Shown here piece by piece: positions 11,424 through 54,195 of a DNA stretch of 54,699 bases. Numbering within the stretch: the first letter of the stretch is position 1; every line of letters begins with the position of its first letter. The DNA is from Acidaminococcus massiliensis (GTDB taxonomy: Bacteria; Bacillota; Negativicutes; Acidaminococcales; Acidaminococcaceae): positions 636,673 through 691,371 of the forward strand of contig NZ_LT608315.1 of NCBI RefSeq assembly GCF_900095825.1, read 5' to 3'. Made by a program: the position numbers and the translations under genes. The notes beneath the pieces are model-generated. The model did no database searches. It was given only the letters and a program-made list of their open reading frames with translations, and had not been told where the DNA came from.

Positions 11424-11697
11424 CAAGTGCTTGAACTGCCTAAATTGATATACTGAAGAAAGTGTCCATGAAGGAACCAAGTACACAAGATCTTTTCTGA
11501 CAGAGAGCTGCTGGCTGTGGGAAGCAGCGGAGGGTTTTGTGGAATCCACTCCTGAGACGATGGGGGCAGCAACCCATCCGGCCAAGCCGTTATCCTGGAA
11601 ATGAGGCTGCACTGCAGCGAAATAAGGTGGCACCACGTGAGAGGTTCTCCCGTCCTTGACATACCCGTTTAGGGGGTCAGGCACGGGAGTTTTTATT
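11424..11697 (+). promoter_or_regulatory. T-box leader of serA, predicted to read tRNA-Ser (UCC)
   Basis: A complete T-box layout: AGTA motif near 11480, AGAGAGCTG of Stem I (about 11502-11510), specifier region GGAATCCACTCC with TCC at 11545-11547, and T-box core AAGGTGGCACCACG at 11624-11637. The terminator arms are CTCCCGTCCTTGAC (11647-11660) and GTCAGGCACGGGAG (11676-11689), followed by a T run. A serine UCC specifier fits the downstream gene for the first step of serine synthesis. Uncharged tRNA-Ser would stabilise the antiterminator and raise serA transcription. The codon assignment rests on alignment by eye. Confidence 0.88.
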
Positions 11698-26219: not shown

Positions 26220-26265
26220 TTCATAGCCCCTTTTACGTTAACTATACTAAAATACTAGGTTGACT
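26220..26265 (+). promoter_or_regulatory. Biotin operon promoter with BirA-like operator
   Basis: TTCATA (26220-26225), 17-bp spacer, TATACT (26243-26248). An inverted repeat overlaps the -10: GTTAAC (26237-26242) and GTTGAC (26259-26264), 16 bp apart. This matches the layout of known BirA operators (GTAAAC/GTTTAC-type arms, similar spacing). Repression by BirA-biotinyl-AMP is inferred. Confidence 0.65.
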
Positions 26266-26319
26266 AAATAGCCCGCTTCCTGTATGGTAAGGAAGTCTGA
26301 AAATTCTGGAGGTGAGGCT

Positions 26320-26861
26320 GTGCGTTTGCGTGAAATGGTGTTGTGCGGGCTGTTCATTGCCCTGGTGGCAGTGGGGGCCCTGATCCGGATCCCGGTGGGG
26401 AGCGATGTGTACACCCTGCAGTTCATGTTCACCCTGCTGGCGGGACTGCTGCTGGGAGCCCGGCTGGGGGCCCTGGCGGTAGGGACCTATGTGGTCATGG
26501 GCCTTGTGGGAATCCCGGTGTTTGCTTCCGGAGGGGGCCCTCCTATGTGCTCCAGCCCACCTTTGGGTATCTGGTGGGGTTTACCATCCAGGCCTGGGTC
26601 TGCGGGAATCTGGCCCGGCAGGGAGCTGCTGAGGTGACCCTGTCCCGGCTCCTGGGGATCAACCTGGTGGGGATGGTCATCGTCTATGTGCTGGGGATCA
26701 GCTATTTCTGGCTGTCCTCCAACTATCTGGTCCAGGCCCCCATCGGCTTCTGGGCGGCCCTGTGGTACTGCGGGGTACTCCAGGTGGTGCCGGATTTCCT
26801 CCTGTGCCTGGGAGCGGCCTTTGTAGGGCTCCGGTGCCGGAAAGCGGGAATCTGGGTGTAA
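26320..26861 (+). pseudogene. bioY: BioY biotin transporter S-component, frameshifted
   Basis: Together the two frames encode a full BioY of about 180 residues: a GTG start after GGAGGTGAGGC, six membrane helices, and the signature GLVGIPVFASGGGP-SYVLQPTFGYL. The reading frame changes by -1 inside the signature at GGGCCCT (26535-26541). Read straight through, the first frame ends at 26637. The heptamer fits the X XXY YYZ slippery form in the correct phase, and a -1 slip would restore exactly the conserved sequence. A one-base loss from the adjacent G run, or a sequencing error, gives the same picture. BioY takes up biotin, alone or with ECF ATPases. bioD follows 13 bp downstream. Confidence 0.82.
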
Positions 26862-27571: not shown

Positions 27572-28909
27572 ATGGAACACAAAACAATGGAACAGCGGGA
27601 CCTGGACCTGATCTGGCACCCCTGTTCACAAATGAAAGATTACGAAACCCTGCCTCCCATGGTCATCGATCATGCCCAGGGAGTCTGGCTCTACGACATC
27701 CACGGCAAAGCCTATCTGGACATTGTCAGCTCCTGGTGGGCCAATCTGCTAGGCCACCGGAATCCGGTGCTCAATGGACGGATCAAAGACCAGCTGGACA
27801 AACTGGAACATGTGATCTTTGCCAATTTCACCCATGCCCCGGCCATTACCCTGGCGGAACGGCTGAAGGCCCTGGTGCCGGAAGGGCTGTGCCGGTTCCA
27901 GTTCCACGACAACGGATCGGCGGCAGTGGAAGCGGCTCTGAAGCTGTGTTTCCAGTACTGGGCCCAGACCGGCCATCCGGAAAAACAGCGGTTCATGTGC
28001 CTGACGGAAGGGTACCACGGAGAAACCATCGGGGCTCTGTCCGTGGGGAGCATGGATCTGTTCGCCAAACTGTACAAGCCCATGATGATGGACAACATCC
28101 ATGTGGAAGCCCCGGACTGTTTCCGCTGCCCCTATGGAAAGGACCGGGACCACTGCCAGTGTGAATGCTTCGCCAAAGCGGAAGAGGCCTTTGCCCTCCA
28201 CGGCCGGGAAACTGCCGCCATGATTGTGGAGCCCCTGCTCCAGGGCAGCGCCGGCATGCGGGTGTACCCGGCTCTCTATCTCCAAAAGCTCCGGGCGCTG
28301 TGCGATGCCTATGAGGTGAAGCTGATCGCCGACGAAATCGCTACCGGCTTCGGCCGGACCGGTACCCTGTTCGCCTGCGGCCAGGCAGGGATCACCCCGG
28401 ATGTGATGTGCCTGTCCAAAGGACTGACCGGAGGGTACATGCCCATGTCCCTGACGGTGACCACCCGGGAGATCTATGAGGCTTTCTACGACGATTACGG
28501 CAAGCACAAGGCCTTCCTCCACAGCCACACCTATGCCGGGAATCCCCTGGGGTGTGCGGTGGCCCACGGGGTGCTGGATGTGCTGGAACAGGAACAGATC
28601 CTGCCCCGGGCCCGGGAAACCGCCCGGTGGCTCACTGGAGAAATGGAAGCCCGGTTCGGGAACCATCCCCTGGTGGGAGAAATCCGCCACATCGGCCTGA
28701 TCCACGCCCTGGAACTGGTGGCGGACAAAAAGACCAAAGCCCCCTTCCCGGCGGAAAAACGGCTGGGGTATTACTTCTATCAAAAGGCCCTGGAACGGGG
28801 AATGGTACTCCGGCCTTTGGGAGATGTACTGTATTTCAACCCGCCTCTCACCATTACCCGGGCGGAACTGACCCAGGCCATGGATATCCTGGAACAGGTG
28901 CTGGCCTGA
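27572..28909 (+). CDS. bioA: Adenosylmethionine-8-amino-7-oxononanoate aminotransferase
   Basis: PLP enzyme making 7,8-diaminopelargonate with SAM as amino donor. 445 residues. Signatures: DLDLIWHPCSQMKDYE at the N-terminus (substrate-binding Trp in IWHPC), DNGSAAVEAALK (about 110-121), the Asp of ADEIATGFGRTG (about 252-263) and the PLP lysine in CLSKGLTGGYMP (about 282). AAGGAGACGAAA precedes the chosen ATG. Third gene of the bioY-D-A cluster, and the product feeds BioD, whose gene is just upstream. Biotin is required by the pyruvate carboxylase encoded 6 kb downstream. Confidence 0.95.
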   Translation: MEHKTMEQRDLDLIWHPCSQMKDYETLPPMVIDHAQGVWLYDIHGKAYLDIVSSWWANLLGHRNPVLNGRIKDQLDKLEHVIFANFTHAPAITLAERLKALVPEGLCRFQFHDNGSAAVEAALKLCFQYWAQTGHPEKQRFMCLTEGYHGETIGALSVGSMDLFAKLYKPMMMDNIHVEAPDCFRCPYGKDRDHCQCECFAKAEEAFALHGRETAAMIVEPLLQGSAGMRVYPALYLQKLRALCDAYEVKLIADEIATGFGRTGTLFACGQAGITPDVMCLSKGLTGGYMPMSLTVTTREIYEAFYDDYGKHKAFLHSHTYAGNPLGCAVAHGVLDVLEQEQILPRARETARWLTGEMEARFGNHPLVGEIRHIGLIHALELVADKKTKAPFPAEKRLGYYFYQKALERGMVLRPLGDVLYFNPPLTITRAELTQAMDILEQVLA

Positions 28910-28930
28910 GAGCCGGCTGCCTGGGATAAG

Positions 28931-28998
28931 GTAAACCAAAAATAAAATAAGGTTGACACAAAACGTAATCTGTCCTATACTAAGGACAACGAATTCAA
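28931..28998 (+). promoter_or_regulatory. Strong promoter with BirA-like box and a palindrome over the -10
   Basis: TTGACA (28953-28958), 17-bp spacer, TATACT (28976-28981). GTAAACC (28931-28937) and GGTTGAC (28951-28957) form a BirA-like inverted repeat reaching the -35. TGTCCT (28971-28976) / AGGACA (28983-28988) form a second inverted repeat around the -10. It drives the putative small RNA, and possibly the peptidase gene by read-through. Confidence 0.6.
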
Positions 28999-29094
28999 CG
29001 AGCCTGATTTCGTCCTGATCCGTCCCTCCGGATCGGCCCATGAGAAACTCTCAAAAGGAGCTGCTGTACGTTTTCCGTGCAGCGGCTCCTTTTT
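28988..29094 (+). ncRNA. Putative small RNA or attenuator leader of unknown class
   Basis: About 105 nt between a consensus promoter and a strong terminator, with no plausible ORF. Predicted helices in order: ACGAA (28989-28993) / TTCGT (29009-29013); GATCCG (29017-29022) / CGGATC (29029-29034); a small GAG/CTC hairpin near 29042-29050; and a 15-bp terminator stem (29056-29070 / 29076-29090) followed by T5. I matched it to no riboswitch or sRNA class known to me. It could be a stand-alone sRNA or an attenuator for the peptidase gene 50 bp downstream. Confidence 0.5.
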
Positions 29095-29145
29095 CGTGGT
29101 AAGATGGGGGAGCATGATCATAGAAGACAACAGGAGGAACATCCT

Positions 29146-30381
29146 ATGGCTATTTTGGAACATGATATCCTGATCAGTGAAGACTTGCGCCGGGTTCCCC
29201 GGGAAGAACTGGAAAACCGGCTGACACGGCTGCGGGAAGCCCTGGACCGTCAAGAGCCAGGCTGGCAGATGGCCGTGATCACAGATAAATTGGATATGTA
29301 TTATTTTACCGGTACCATGCAGGAAGGAGCTTTTATAGTCCGGCCCCAGGACGCCATCCTGTGGGTGCGCAGGAGCCTGGCCCGGGCCCTGAATGAAAGC
29401 CTCCTTCCGGAAGGCTGGATCCGCCGGATGCACAGCTATCGGCAGCCGGCGGAATACTATGGGGCGGATCTGCCATCAGAAGTGTATCTGGATGAAAAGC
29501 ACACCTCTCTGGAATGGCTCCGGTTCTTCCGGAAATACTTTCCTTTCGAAACCAGGAGAAACTTGGATGCGGTGCTCAGCGGCCTCCGGAGCGTGAAAAG
29601 CGACTACGAGCTGGCCCTTTTGAGCCGCAGCGGACAAATCCATGCCGATGTGCTCATGGAAGAAGCTCCGGTGTTCCTGAAAGTGGGGATCAGCGAAGCG
29701 GAATTGGCCATCCAGCTGTACCTGCGGATGGTACTGAAGGGCAGCCAGGGGGTAGCCCGGACCAATCGGCCCACAGGAGAAGATGCCATCGGTCTGGCTT
29801 CTTTTGGGAAGAGCGCGCTGGTGCGGACGGCCTTTGACGGACCTGGAGGGACCAGCGGTACCTGTGTGGCGGTCCAGAGCATTGGCTCAGCCTTCCGGCT
29901 GCTGAAGCCGGGCCGTCTGGTTTACTTGGATATCCCCTGTGGGGTGGATGGGTACAATACGGATAAAACGGTGGTGTATTATTTCGGGGATTTGGAACGG
30001 GATCCGGCCAAAGAGGAAATCCTCCGGGCCTACAACTATTGCCTGGACCTGGAACAGCAGACTCTGGCCCTTTTGAAACCAGGGGCTGTTTTGGGAGAAA
30101 TCTACGACAAGGTGATGGCTGATTTCGATCCCTACTATGAAAATATGTTCATGAACGGGGGCCGTTTCCTGGGACACAGCATTGGTATGTGCATGGATGA
30201 GACACCGGTGATCGCCGGCGGCGTCAAAGATCGGGTGGAGGAGAACATGGTTTTTGCGGTGGAACCCAAGATCGCCCTGCCGGGACTGGGTATGGTAGGG
30301 ACGGAAAACACCTACCGGATCGGACCGGAGGGACCGGTCTGTTTGACGGGAGGATCCCAGCCGCTGCGGGTCATCCGTTGA
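29146..30381 (+). CDS. M24-family metallopeptidase (Xaa-Pro peptidase-like)
   Basis: A 411-residue cytosolic protein with the creatinase/prolidase N-domain (about 10-150) and a pita-bread M24 catalytic domain (about 170-405). Metal ligands fit the family: two Asp in LDIPCGVDGYNTD (about 265-277), His in GHSIGM (about 344), and Glu in FAVEPK and GTENTY (near 371 and 387). It would cleave peptides with proline at the second position. In an amino-acid fermenter this releases usable residues (inference). GGAGGAACATCCT precedes the ATG. The exact substrate (dipeptidase or aminopeptidase P) cannot be decided. Confidence 0.88.
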   Translation: MAILEHDILISEDLRRVPREELENRLTRLREALDRQEPGWQMAVITDKLDMYYFTGTMQEGAFIVRPQDAILWVRRSLARALNESLLPEGWIRRMHSYRQPAEYYGADLPSEVYLDEKHTSLEWLRFFRKYFPFETRRNLDAVLSGLRSVKSDYELALLSRSGQIHADVLMEEAPVFLKVGISEAELAIQLYLRMVLKGSQGVARTNRPTGEDAIGLASFGKSALVRTAFDGPGGTSGTCVAVQSIGSAFRLLKPGRLVYLDIPCGVDGYNTDKTVVYYFGDLERDPAKEEILRAYNYCLDLEQQTLALLKPGAVLGEIYDKVMADFDPYYENMFMNGGRFLGHSIGMCMDETPVIAGGVKDRVEENMVFAVEPKIALPGLGMVGTENTYRIGPEGPVCLTGGSQPLRVIR

Positions 30382-35206: not shown

Positions 35207-38200
35207 ATGCGCGCCATCCACAAGATCCTGGTCCCCAACCGAGGGGAAATCGCTATCCGGATTTTCCGGGCCTGTCATGAACTGGGCATCCGTACCGTTG
35301 CCGTCTATTCCCAGGAAGATATCCTGTCTCTGCACCGCAGCCGGGCAGATGAAGCCTATCTGGTGGGAAAAGGGAAAAAACCGGTGGATGCTTATCTGGA
35401 TATCGAAGACATCATCCGGATCTGCAAAGAACATGAGGTGGATGCCATCCATCCAGGCTATGGGTTCCTGGCAGAAAATGCCCAGCTGGCCCGCCGCTGT
35501 GAGGAGGAAGGGATCATCTTCATCGGTCCCCGGGTGGAACATTTGGAGATGTTCGGGGATAAGGTGAATGCCCGGATCCAGGCGGAGAAAGCGGGAATCC
35601 CCATGATCCCTGGCACCAAAGGAGCGGTGAAGAGTTTTGCGGAAGTGAAGGCCTTCGCGGAAGAAGTGGGCCTGCCGGTGATGATCAAGGCGGTCAATGG
35701 AGGCGGCGGCCGAGGCATGCGGAATGTGGACCGGATGGAAGACCTGGAAGAAGCTTACAACCGGGCCCGTTCAGAGGCTCGGATGGCTTTTGGGGACGAA
35801 GATATCTATGTGGAGAAATGCATCCTGAACCCCAAACACATCGAAGTCCAGATTTTGGGAGATGAACAGGGCCATGTGGTCCATCTCCATGAACGGGACT
35901 GCTCCATCCAGCGGCGGCACCAGAAGGTCATCGAAATGGCTCCGGCCTGGTCCCTGCCTCGGGAACTGCGGGAGGCCATCTGCCAGGCAGCTCTGAAACT
36001 CATGGAGAATGTCCATTATGTGAATGCCGGGACGGTAGAATTCCTGGCGGATCAGGACGAAAAGCATTTTTATTTCATCGAAGTCAATCCCCGAGTCCAG
36101 GTAGAACACACGGTGACCGAAGCCATTACGGATGTGGATATCGTGAAGGCCCAGATCCTGATCGCCGAGGGACATGGCTTGGATGATCCGGAGATCCATG
36201 CGGGGCGGCAGGGAGACATCCCCTGCAACGGGGTGGCCATCCAATGCCGGATCACCACGGAAGATCCCCAGAACCAGTTCATGCCGGATACGGGGAAAAT
36301 CATTGCCTACCGGAGCGGCGGCGGACCGGGGATCCGTCTGGATGCGGGGACCGCGTATCAGGGAGCGGTCATCACCCCTTATTATGATTCGCTGCTGGTC
36401 AAGGTGACGGCCCATGCTATGGATCCGCTGGCCACCATCCATCGGATGCTCCGCTGCCTGGACGAATTCCGGATCAGCGGAGTGAAGACCAATATCTTCT
36501 TCCTGAAGAATATGCTCCAGGATCCAGCGTTCCAGGCTGGGGCCTGCGATGTGAACTACATTGACCGGCATCCGGAACTGTTGGTGGATCCCGAGGAAGT
36601 CAGTGACCGAGGGACCCGGATGCTGACCTATATCGGAGAAGTGACGGTGAACGGATATCGGGGGAATGGCCATCATACCAAACCGGAATTCCCGCCGCCG
36701 GTGCGGCTGGAAACGGACGGAAGCCCCTGCCCGGCCGGGACGAAGCAGCTCCTGGATCAACTGGGACCGGACGCTTTTGCCCGCTGGATCCTGGATCAGA
36801 AACAGGTGCTGCTGATGGATACCACCTACCGGGATGCCCACCAGTCCCTCCTGGCCACCCGGATCCGGACCCGGGATATCCTGGGGGCCATCCATTATAC
36901 GGCCCAAAAGGTGCCCCAGCTGTATGCTTTTGAAAACTGGGGCGGTGCTACCTTCGATGTGGCTTACCGTTTCTTGGATGAAGATCCTTGGCAGCGGCTC
37001 CGGCTCATGCGCCAGGCAGCCCCCAACATCCTGTTCCAGATGCTGACCCGGGGAGCCAATGCGGTGGGGTATACCAATTATCCCCCGGAAGTGATCCGGG
37101 AATTTCTGACTTTGGCGGCGAAAAACGGGGTGGATGTGTTCCGGATCTTTGACTGCTTGAACCAGCTGGATCATATGACCTTCTCCATCGAAGCGGTCCG
37201 CAAGCTGGGGAAAGTGGCAGAAGGGACCATTTGCTATACGGGGGATATCTTGGACGACCGGCGGCAGAAATATTCCCTGCAGTATTATACGGATCTGGCC
37301 AAAGCCCTGGCTGATGCCGGGGCCAATATCATCGCCATCAAGGATATGGCAGGGCTTTTGAAGCCGGAAGCGGCCTATGCTCTGGTGTCGGCCCTGAAGG
37401 ACGCAGTGGATCTGCCCATCCATCTCCACAGCCATGAAGGAGGCGGCTGTACCCTGTACAGCTATGCCAAAGCGGTGGAAGCCGGGGTGGATATCCTGGA
37501 TGTGGCCACCAGTGCCCTGTCCGGCGGGACCAGCCAGCCATCCATGACGGCGCTGTGCTATGCCCTGGAACATACGCCCCGGCAGCCGAAGCTGGATCTG
37601 GATGCCTTGGAGACCATCGACCGGTATTGGCAGGTGGTCCGGAAGTATTATGCCGGAGTGGATGCCCGGATGACCTGTCCCAACACCACGGTGTTCCAAC
37701 ATGAAATGCCGGGCGGGCAGTATTCCAACCTGCAGCAGCAGGCTGCCGCGGTGGGACTGGGAGACCGCTGGCCGGAAGTCTGCCGGATGTATGCACGGGT
37801 GAACCAGCTGTTCGGGGATGTGATCAAAGTCACGCCTTCTTCTAAGGTGGTGGGGGATATGTCCCTGTTCATGGTCCAGAACCATCTGACGGAGGAAGAC
37901 ATCTACCAGCGGGGAGATACCCTGGACTTTCCCCAGAGCGTGGTGGATTTCTTTGACGGAAAATTGGGGACGCCCTATGGCGGGTTCCCAGAACTGCTCC
38001 AGAAAATCATCCTGCGGGGTGCCAAACCTCACTTGGAGACGCCTCCCCAGCCCATCGATCTGGACAAACTCCGGGAGGATCTGAAGAAACTGCACATCCC
38101 GGATACTCCGGAGGCTGTCAGCAGCTGCTGCCTGTATCCCAAGGTCTATAAAGACTATATACAGAGGTACCATCAATACGGGGACATGAGCATCCTGGAT

Positions 38201-38632
38201 ACGCCCACGTTCTTCTTCGGCATGAAGCCAGGGGAAGAAATCCGGGTGCACATGGATGGAAAAATGGTGCTGGTCCGGCTGAATTACCTGACCCGGCCGG
38301 ATCCGGAAGGGTATCGGGAGGTCCAGTTCGAAATCAACGGGATGCCCCGGGAAATCAAAGTCCGGGATGCCAAGGCTTCGGAAGGCAGCAGCCTGGCCCG
38401 GAAGGCAGATCCTACGGTGCCGGGAGAAGTGGGAGCCACCCTGTCCGGCTCGGTGCTCCGGGTCCAGGTGGAACCGGGAACTGTAGTGAAACAGGGAGAT
38501 CCGCTGATGGTCACGGAAGCCATGAAGATGGAAACCACCCTGACGGCGCCGGTGGACGGCCTGGTCAAGGAAGTGCTGGTCAAAGCCGGCAGCCGGATCC
38601 AGTCCGGGGATCTGCTGGTGGTGATCCAGTGA
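35207..38632 (+). CDS. pyc: Pyruvate carboxylase (single polypeptide)
   Basis: Biotin enzyme converting pyruvate, bicarbonate and ATP to oxaloacetate. At 1,141 residues it has the full alpha4 type layout. Biotin carboxylase (about 4-455): VPNRGEIAIR, KAVNGGGGRGMR and FIEVNPRVQVEHT. Carboxyltransferase (about 540-800): DTTYRDAHQSLLATR, with conserved metal-site stretch HLHSHEGGG, slightly altered from the common H-x-H-D-T. PYC-OADA domain (about 860-1030), then a C-terminal biotinyl domain with EAMKMET near residue 1105. AGAAGGAGGAACTCCT precedes the ATG. It supplies oxaloacetate and creates a biotin demand that fits the nearby bioYDA cluster. Confidence 0.95.
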   Translation: MRAIHKILVPNRGEIAIRIFRACHELGIRTVAVYSQEDILSLHRSRADEAYLVGKGKKPVDAYLDIEDIIRICKEHEVDAIHPGYGFLAENAQLARRCEEEGIIFIGPRVEHLEMFGDKVNARIQAEKAGIPMIPGTKGAVKSFAEVKAFAEEVGLPVMIKAVNGGGGRGMRNVDRMEDLEEAYNRARSEARMAFGDEDIYVEKCILNPKHIEVQILGDEQGHVVHLHERDCSIQRRHQKVIEMAPAWSLPRELREAICQAALKLMENVHYVNAGTVEFLADQDEKHFYFIEVNPRVQVEHTVTEAITDVDIVKAQILIAEGHGLDDPEIHAGRQGDIPCNGVAIQCRITTEDPQNQFMPDTGKIIAYRSGGGPGIRLDAGTAYQGAVITPYYDSLLVKVTAHAMDPLATIHRMLRCLDEFRISGVKTNIFFLKNMLQDPAFQAGACDVNYIDRHPELLVDPEEVSDRGTRMLTYIGEVTVNGYRGNGHHTKPEFPPPVRLETDGSPCPAGTKQLLDQLGPDAFARWILDQKQVLLMDTTYRDAHQSLLATRIRTRDILGAIHYTAQKVPQLYAFENWGGATFDVAYRFLDEDPWQRLRLMRQAAPNILFQMLTRGANAVGYTNYPPEVIREFLTLAAKNGVDVFRIFDCLNQLDHMTFSIEAVRKLGKVAEGTICYTGDILDDRRQKYSLQYYTDLAKALADAGANIIAIKDMAGLLKPEAAYALVSALKDAVDLPIHLHSHEGGGCTLYSYAKAVEAGVDILDVATSALSGGTSQPSMTALCYALEHTPRQPKLDLDALETIDRYWQVVRKYYAGVDARMTCPNTTVFQHEMPGGQYSNLQQQAAAVGLGDRWPEVCRMYARVNQLFGDVIKVTPSSKVVGDMSLFMVQNHLTEEDIYQRGDTLDFPQSVVDFFDGKLGTPYGGFPELLQKIILRGAKPHLETPPQPIDLDKLREDLKKLHIPDTPEAVSSCCLYPKVYKDYIQRYHQYGDMSILDTPTFFFGMKPGEEIRVHMDGKMVLVRLNYLTRPDPEGYREVQFEINGMPREIKVRDAKASEGSSLARKADPTVPGEVGATLSGSVLRVQVEPGTVVKQGDPLMVTEAMKMETTLTAPVDGLVKEVLVKAGSRIQSGDLLVVIQ

Positions 38633-50040: not shown

Positions 50041-51412
<1,372 letters not shown>

Positions 51413-53919: not shown

Positions 53920-54195
53920 TTCACAATTTCAAATCCCAATCCCAGGATGGGAAAAAGTACTTCTGAAGGGCTTTGCAGAGAGGCAGCGGATGGTGAGAGC
54001 TGTCAGGCCGGGCAGGAGGAAACTGGTCCCGGAGGAGACAGGCTGAACCCACTGGCAGTAGGCCTGGACGGCATTCCCCGTTACAGGAAGCGCGTATGAT
54101 TGTACGTGGCAAAGTGTCCCGGAGCAGCAATGCCCGGGGAATCAGGGTGGTACCGCGGAGCTTTCCGTCCCTTTTCCAGGGACGGATTTTTTATT
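53920..54195 (+). promoter_or_regulatory. T-box leader of the second acetolactate synthase gene
   Basis: AGTA near 53957, GCAGAGAGGCAG of Stem I, T-box core AGGGTGGTACCGCGG (54144-54158), terminator CCGTCCC (54165-54171) / GGGACGG (54179-54185), then T6. The specifier region AAACTGGTCCCGG permits CTG (Leu) or GTC (Val); I cannot decide. A branched-chain amino acid is expected from the gene. Confidence 0.88.

Follow-up and report, generated by a model that had tools for sequence, protein, structure and literature searches.

The gap between bioA and an M24 peptidase gene in our window, the whole 54,699-nt stretch of the Acidaminococcus massiliensis genome analysed, holds a promoter and a strongly folded RNA, and raises the question of what this RNA is, what controls it and what it acts on. 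The reading we favour, with a probability of roughly 0.6 as the whole explanation, is a stand-alone sRNA of the BirA regulon that would be induced by biotin shortage and would pair in trans with gcdC. It rests on comparison of nine genomes of the genus, that of the window (G000) and its Acidaminococcus relatives (G001-G008).

An earlier note on this DNA had proposed a near-consensus promoter, and 11 of the 12 consensus positions are indeed matched; the promoter scan listed no other promoter-like site within 28600-29400, where shuffled sequences gave a mean of 0.5. The transcript of about 105 nt claimed in that note, with three helices and a 15-bp terminator stem followed by a T run, was recovered as a predicted RNA of 107 nt, in which three helices are followed by a terminator stem of 17 pairs (Table 1). 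The segment 28988-29096 folds at -50.5 kcal/mol; 200 shuffles gave -25.6 +/- 3.4, none of them as low (z -7.4). The + strand terminator is missing from the consensus scan of 28600-29400, in our guess because its T run is itself base-paired, within the stem, to a run of A. P1, P2 and the terminator are backed by an alignment of four RNAs (G000, G006, G007 and G004), and the covariance check in related genomes proposed earlier bore out P2 through two two-sided pair changes. The UCCCUC loop of P2 has an unpaired probability of 0.996 in G000. In the minimum-energy folds it is fully unpaired in G000, G006 (whose RNA was folded in shortened form) and G007, and unpaired at five of six bases in G008 and four of six in G003, while four of six are paired in G004. 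The description of the transcript as free of ORFs was nearly right, except that a 20-codon ATG frame (29040-29102) crosses the terminator. By eye, the alignment shows this frame intact in G000 and G006 but interrupted in G007 and G004, and it lacks a convincing Shine-Dalgarno sequence; a small protein was rejected since the frame is not conserved. All told, we hold it very likely that 28988-29094 is an RNA gene.

Table 1. Features at the bioA-M24 gap and related sites, in window coordinates
Feature	Position	Strand	Basis or remark
BirA box of the bioY-bioD-bioA operon, GTTAAC-N16-GTTGAC	26237-26264	+	right half in the -35
BirA box of the sRNA gene (predicted), GGTAAACC-N13-GGTTGACA	28930-28958	+	right half holds the -35; only match in the window at <=3 mismatches
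Sigma-70 type promoter, TTGACA-17-TATACT	28953-28981	+	scan; TTGACA 28953-28958, 17-nt spacer, TATACT 28976-28981; TTGACA-17-TATA(A/C)T in 6/6 sRNA loci
Predicted sRNA, 107 nt	28988-29094	+	start set 7 nt past the -10, not a mapped end
Helix P2, 6-nt loop UCCCUC	29015-29036	+	two pairs changed on both sides and loop invariant, four genomes
UCCCUC, proposed seed	29023-29028	+	with the preceding CCG complements GAGGGACGG in the gcdD-gcdC leader
CAUGAGAA	29039-29046	+	complements the gcdC start region, UUCUCAUG
Terminator hairpin (17-pair stem) with terminal T run	29054-29092	+	fold and four-genome alignment
Pyruvate carboxylase, second protein of the genome likely to be biotinylated	35207-38632	+	start matches the sRNA over 5 nt: no complementarity here

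A search of 61 genomes at the DNA level found homologues of the RNA in G006, G007 and G004 (88, 84 and 74% identical), all between bioA and M24; two further short matches (L005 and L006) cover the terminator stem alone. Two more relatives carry an equivalent gene. (i) G008 has no bioYDA at the locus, which lies between DUF1653 and M24, yet it has the box, the promoter, a UCCCUC RNA, the terminator and M24 (L015). (ii) In G003, GTTAAC-N15-GTTGACA-N17-TATAAT precedes a UCCCUC RNA with a terminator, missed by the search with the window RNA; its neighbours are a rubrerythrin gene and a flavodiiron-type gene. UCCCUC is thus present in all six RNAs, those of G003 and G008 having little in common beyond this motif, hairpins and the terminator. 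The pattern GTTGAC-N17..19-TATAMT-N38..66-TCCCTC has exactly one match in each of G000, G003, G004, G006, G007 and G008, none in the 53 other genomes of the family and none in controls, so that the sRNA gene is recognisable across species by its promoter and 6-nt seed alone. Searches with the box, a relaxed box and the half-box/-10/UCCCUC combination did not find the sRNA in G001, G002 or G005 (completeness 90%, 99% and 85%), nor did a synteny search show one behind rubrerythrin there. The relaxed search listed 30 matches in these three genomes, among which the bioB sites and the G001 match (bioB) were read, the remainder being taken for chance or coding matches by their sequence and not read singly.

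Since an RNA of the same box-promoter type recurs at the unrelated G003 locus, we take it for a stand-alone sRNA and not an M24 leader. The regulatory sRNA suggested in the earlier note is thereby supported, by its own conserved promoter, the terminator, the covarying helix and the G003 equivalent in an unrelated neighbourhood. The other suggestion made there, a metabolite-sensing attenuator of the peptidase gene, did not hold up. A riboswitch or attenuator ahead of M24 could draw on the stable fold and on a terminator upstream of M24 in five genomes, and we consider it very improbable: the G003 RNA does not lie upstream of M24, the window RNA has a single dominant fold (minimum-energy structure and centroid coincide) with no apparent antiterminator, and the dissimilar G003 and G008 RNAs show no conserved aptamer. 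Rfam 15 likewise gave no family at gathering score, for the window RNA (in line with the note's failure to match a known riboswitch) or for the G003 and G008 loci; the best lax match of the window RNA has an E of 0.67, and phage records gave no match. Three T-box leaders do occur elsewhere in the window, at 11459-11660 (+), 51142-51382 (-) and 53935-54175 (+).

The RNA might instead be a 3' UTR element of bioYDA, a terminator with a processed stub and no trans target, whose promoter tops up M24. We saw no other terminator between the end of bioA (28909) and the RNA, nor did the + strand scan give one, so the bio mRNA may terminate at the RNA hairpin as well, and M24 follows the RNA in five genomes. 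This explanation is nonetheless improbable, as in G003 the equivalent gene has neither bio genes nor M24 beside it, and in G008 it has no adjacent bioYDA. M24 also has, in our reading, its own promoter in G003 (TTGCAC-17-TATAAT, the gene lying ~70 bp past bioA) and probably in G008, where it begins ~134 nt beyond the terminator after another promoter-like site. By this comparison, the M24 peptidase gene is a neighbour of the sRNA and not its partner.

The key part overlooked in the earlier note is a BirA-type inverted repeat over the -35. The form GGTWAACC-N13-GGTTGACA, searched with up to one mismatch, has one exact match per genome in five of the nine Acidaminococcus genomes (none for the reversed control), each upstream of M24 and an RNA. 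The same type of box serves biotin genes: GTTAAC-N16-GTTGAC, with its right half as the -35, is found at all seven bioY promoters examined (G000 and G002-G007), and bioB promoters have GTTAAC-N15-GTTGAC, likewise overlapping the -35 (the G000 site is at C4:1225707-1225757). We extended this to 59 Acidaminococcaceae genomes with a box-promoter pattern allowing two mismatches, for which reversed controls gave 0-2 matches per genome and strand. At least 56 of the 59 genomes had a match, the weaker (2-mismatch) ones largely looking like chance, and from the matches listed 19 well-formed non-sRNA sites were read. According to Pfam, the following gene is bioB (BATS) at seven of these sites, bioY at three, a bioD-like AAA_26 gene at one and an ABC ATPase gene at one; the seven without Pfam confirmation comprise three bioB/bioY-like genes (by eye), three membrane-protein-like genes and one contig end. 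In G000, a frameshift near 26540, either a real lesion or a sequencing error, divides bioY itself (26284-26861) into two overlapping frames, where G006, G007, G004 and G003 read through.

The published BirA consensus is TTGTAAACC-[N14/15]-GGTTTACAA, with sites such as TGTcAACC-[N14]-GGTTgACA in the accessible text of PMC545781, and the core of the sRNA box, GTAAACC/GGTTgACA, resembles these. Its spacer is N13, compared with N14 at bioY and N14/15 in that text, and N13 also occurs at bioB in the family. A sole biotin ligase was found in G000, a protein of 331 aa with HTH_11, BPL_LplA_LipB and BPL_C domains, the HTH being N-terminal. With the same box type in the same placement before bioY, bioB and biotin genes of the family, the sRNA very probably belongs to the BirA regulon. 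Control of the sRNA gene (28930-29094) by BirA, the biotin repressor, is accordingly predicted with high confidence, and we infer both BirA binding and expression of the sRNA from the comparison. The link to biotin guessed at in the earlier note is thus probably real, acting through BirA at the promoter and not through an aptamer.

The palindrome noted earlier around the -10, TGTCCT/AGGACA, is present as TGTCC/GGACA (28971-28975 / 28984-28988), modest when taken alone (p 0.04 for the 5-bp arms). Arms measure 8 bp in G003 (p.0004), 6 bp in G008 (p.0006), 5 bp in G006 (p.02) and just 3 bp, not significant, in the close relatives G007 and G004; the -10 of bioY in G000 also has a 6-bp dyad (p.013), and ten other bio promoters tested gave nothing significant. 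We rejected the palindrome as an operator since the arm sequences differ among species, which does not fit a conserved protein site. Dyads of varying sequence lie across the -10 at 28971-28988 and at the L032 (G003) and L015 (G008) promoters.

What might such an RNA act on? We examined gcdC because it carries biotin; some six biotin-related genes were considered, and for gcdC the leader hairpin and the start region were each put to the test. In G000, PF00364 matches a biotin carrier of 146 aa, pyruvate carboxylase and, weakly, a 346-aa frame, and in G004 and G007 the carrier only. The carrier gene lies in a Na+-pumping decarboxylase operon with alpha-, delta-, gamma- and beta-like subunits, which we take to correspond to gcdDCB, the second operon of A. 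fermentans described in the accessible part of PMC3035267; in NCBIfam, alpha, delta and gamma come closest to models of methylmalonyl-CoA decarboxylase subunits, with scores under the cut-offs.

Two complementarities to the gcdC region came out of the comparison. The first involves a GAGGG hairpin directly 3' of gcdD, present in all nine Acidaminococcus genomes (L110-L118), although in G001 it was seen by eye and the minimum-energy fold of the spacer gave another structure. Six of its seven pairs show two-sided changes, with 97.6% of cells paired and GAGGG invariant, among six distinct 8-nt-loop sequences; the 7-nt-loop sequences of G001 and G002 did not enter this alignment. In G000, G006 and G007, GAGGGACGG of the gcdD-gcdC leader is the exact complement of CCGUCCCUC in the sRNA. 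The sequence occurs at 42, 25 and 20 sites in the three genomes, respectively, and blastn of the site contexts found it in register in all three only at the gcdC leader and the sRNA gene, among the matches listed. Against shuffled sRNAs the hairpin match has p.008 in G000,.048 in G004,.116 in G008 and.089 in G003, and is thus weak outside G000. The hairpin is also present in G001, G002 and G005, where the sRNA was not found, so either it has another role or the sRNA there escaped our search. The gcdD-gcdC spacer hairpin may have an operon function independent of the sRNA.

The second complementarity is at the gcdC start region, defined as -20 to +10 and scored against the sRNA of the same species. 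Matches reach 8 nt in G000 (CAUGAGAA), 10 in G007, 9 in G004 and 7 in both G003 and G006, while the G008 start matches a different 9-mer of its sRNA, AGAAAACCC. Shuffle p values are.023 (G000),.002 (G007),.001 (G004),.010 (G008),.12 (G003) and.08 (G006). A Fisher combination over three lineages that were picked after the data were seen (G004 for its clade, G008 and G003) gives 1.3e-4 for gcdC, against.57 for gcdD,.85 for gcdB and.18 for M24; bioA was found in three genomes and bioD and gcdA in one, which makes them weak as controls. Among genes sampled with a simple gene caller, gcdC ranks first of 122 by own-sRNA complementarity in G008 and among the best five of 326 in G000. The caller missed gcdC in G004, where its 9-nt match is longer than that of any of the 122 genes called (8 nt at most). 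When sRNAs and starts were crossed, G000-type sRNAs matched starts of their own type over 7-10 nt and the G008 start over 6 nt, and the G008 sRNA matched its own start over 9 nt and G000-type starts over 5-6 nt. The gcdC starts of G001 and G002, genomes in which the sRNA was not found, match no sRNA over more than 5 nt.

Other results fit this picture less well. In G003, 23 of 107 sampled genes are as well matched as gcdC, and its gcdC start matches the sRNAs of G000, G007, G004 and G008 over 9, 10, 8 and 9 nt, as against 7 nt for its own. The G005 start is matched over 7-10 nt, although the sRNA was not found in that genome (85% complete). Over the 326 sampled start regions of G000, gcdC comes 32nd by accessibility-corrected loop energy and 131st by plain duplex energy, neither ranking favouring it. 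One lineage (G003) and two energy rankings therefore do not single out gcdC. GAGGGA is found in 22 of the 326 regions and is not enriched (permuted hexamers, 18-39).

UCCCUC is able to pair with any GGAGGGA-type site, and the main rival to the silencing of gcdC is a BirA-controlled sRNA whose UCCCUC serves as a general anti-Shine-Dalgarno seed on many mRNAs, in the style of RsaE or RNAIII, with gcdC nothing special. In 11 of the 12 best accessible pairings among the 326 sampled start regions, UCCCUC faces sites of the GAGGGA/GGAGGG type, and S. aureus offers examples of UCCC seeds that pair with G-rich Shine-Dalgarno sites (PMC9217828, accessible part). We consider such general action unlikely, as the complementarity at the gcdC start extends past UCCCUC through sRNA stretches that differ between lineages, and the leader 9-mer is the one kept in three genomes among the matches listed. 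Pyruvate carboxylase was rejected as a conserved target, its start being matched over 5 nt in G000 and 8 nt in G008. Two other start regions deserve mention. A 10-nt complement of the sRNA loop region, AGGGACGGAT, lies in the leader of a gene judged ilvC-like by eye (50041-51051, - strand) and is the longest loop-region match among the 326. The birA start region (L204:5907-6902) ranks 12th of 326 in accessible pairings through CGAGCC of the first sRNA loop, possibly by chance.

Returning to the BirA-controlled sRNA paired with gcdC, we envision the following. With biotin plentiful, BirA-biotinyl-AMP would occupy the box over the -35 and the sRNA gene would be silent; with biotin short, BirA would leave and the RNA of ~107 nt would be made along with bioYDA and bioB. 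Its partner in trans would then be the gcdC mRNA, which encodes the biotin carrier subunit of the Na+-pumping decarboxylase. The exposed UCCCUC would meet the GAGGGA loop of the hairpin just past gcdD, and a second sRNA stretch would cover the gcdC ribosome-binding site or start codon; in G000, the order of the two pairings is impossible for one continuous duplex. Less of GcdC, a main biotin-consuming protein, would be made, and scarce biotin would be spared for other uses. We infer gcdC as the target, and the sign of regulation, from these complementarities, and give repression of gcdC by the sRNA an even chance or slightly better. The fuller picture, of a fast-evolving, biotin-sparing BirA sRNA that shuts off a biotin carrier through a kissing loop and start-codon pairing, we would put at even odds. 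In Acidaminococcus, the Na+ pump conserves energy from glutamate fermentation (PMC3035267, accessible part), so with a sodium pump subunit as its putative target the RNA would tie gut vitamin supply to energy metabolism.

Among known systems, BirA motifs were predicted computationally before RNAIII and sRNA207 of S. aureus (PMC5826253, accessible text), so a link between BirA and sRNAs is as such not new. A computed BirA motif in the promoter region of an sRNA is what those cases share with ours; they are single-genome motif predictions for which the accessible text proposes no biotin-enzyme target, whereas the box described here is conserved across six genomes and agrees with those at biotin genes. 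RNAIII also bears UCCC seeds, and with RsaE/RoxS it resembles our RNA in an unpaired UCCC motif fit for G-rich Shine-Dalgarno sites (PMC9217828, accessible part); our RNA differs in having one UCCCUC in place of duplicated UCCCC, no Rfam match and a BirA-box promoter. A biotin-sparing sRNA was not found in the accessible text of PMC5826253 or PMC7392221, and the literature searched, with subscription papers mostly outside it, yielded neither a conserved BirA-controlled sRNA family nor a biotin-sparing target. To the BirA regulon of bioY, bioB and bioDA operons the sRNA gene is tied by the same box type and the same -35 overlap, with the difference that the regulated unit is a non-coding RNA and the half-site spacing is N13. 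Sparing responses run by sRNAs are textbook knowledge for iron, where RyhB and FsrA are Fur-controlled iron-sparing sRNAs and the FsrA seed is C-rich. The likeness lies in a cofactor-sensing repressor set over uptake or synthesis genes together with an sRNA that would shut down cofactor users, and in the C-rich seed; here the repressor is BirA, the cofactor is biotin, an Rfam match is absent, and target and sign are those we propose. If true, this would be a vitamin-cofactor counterpart of iron sparing, and would show that the logic is general.
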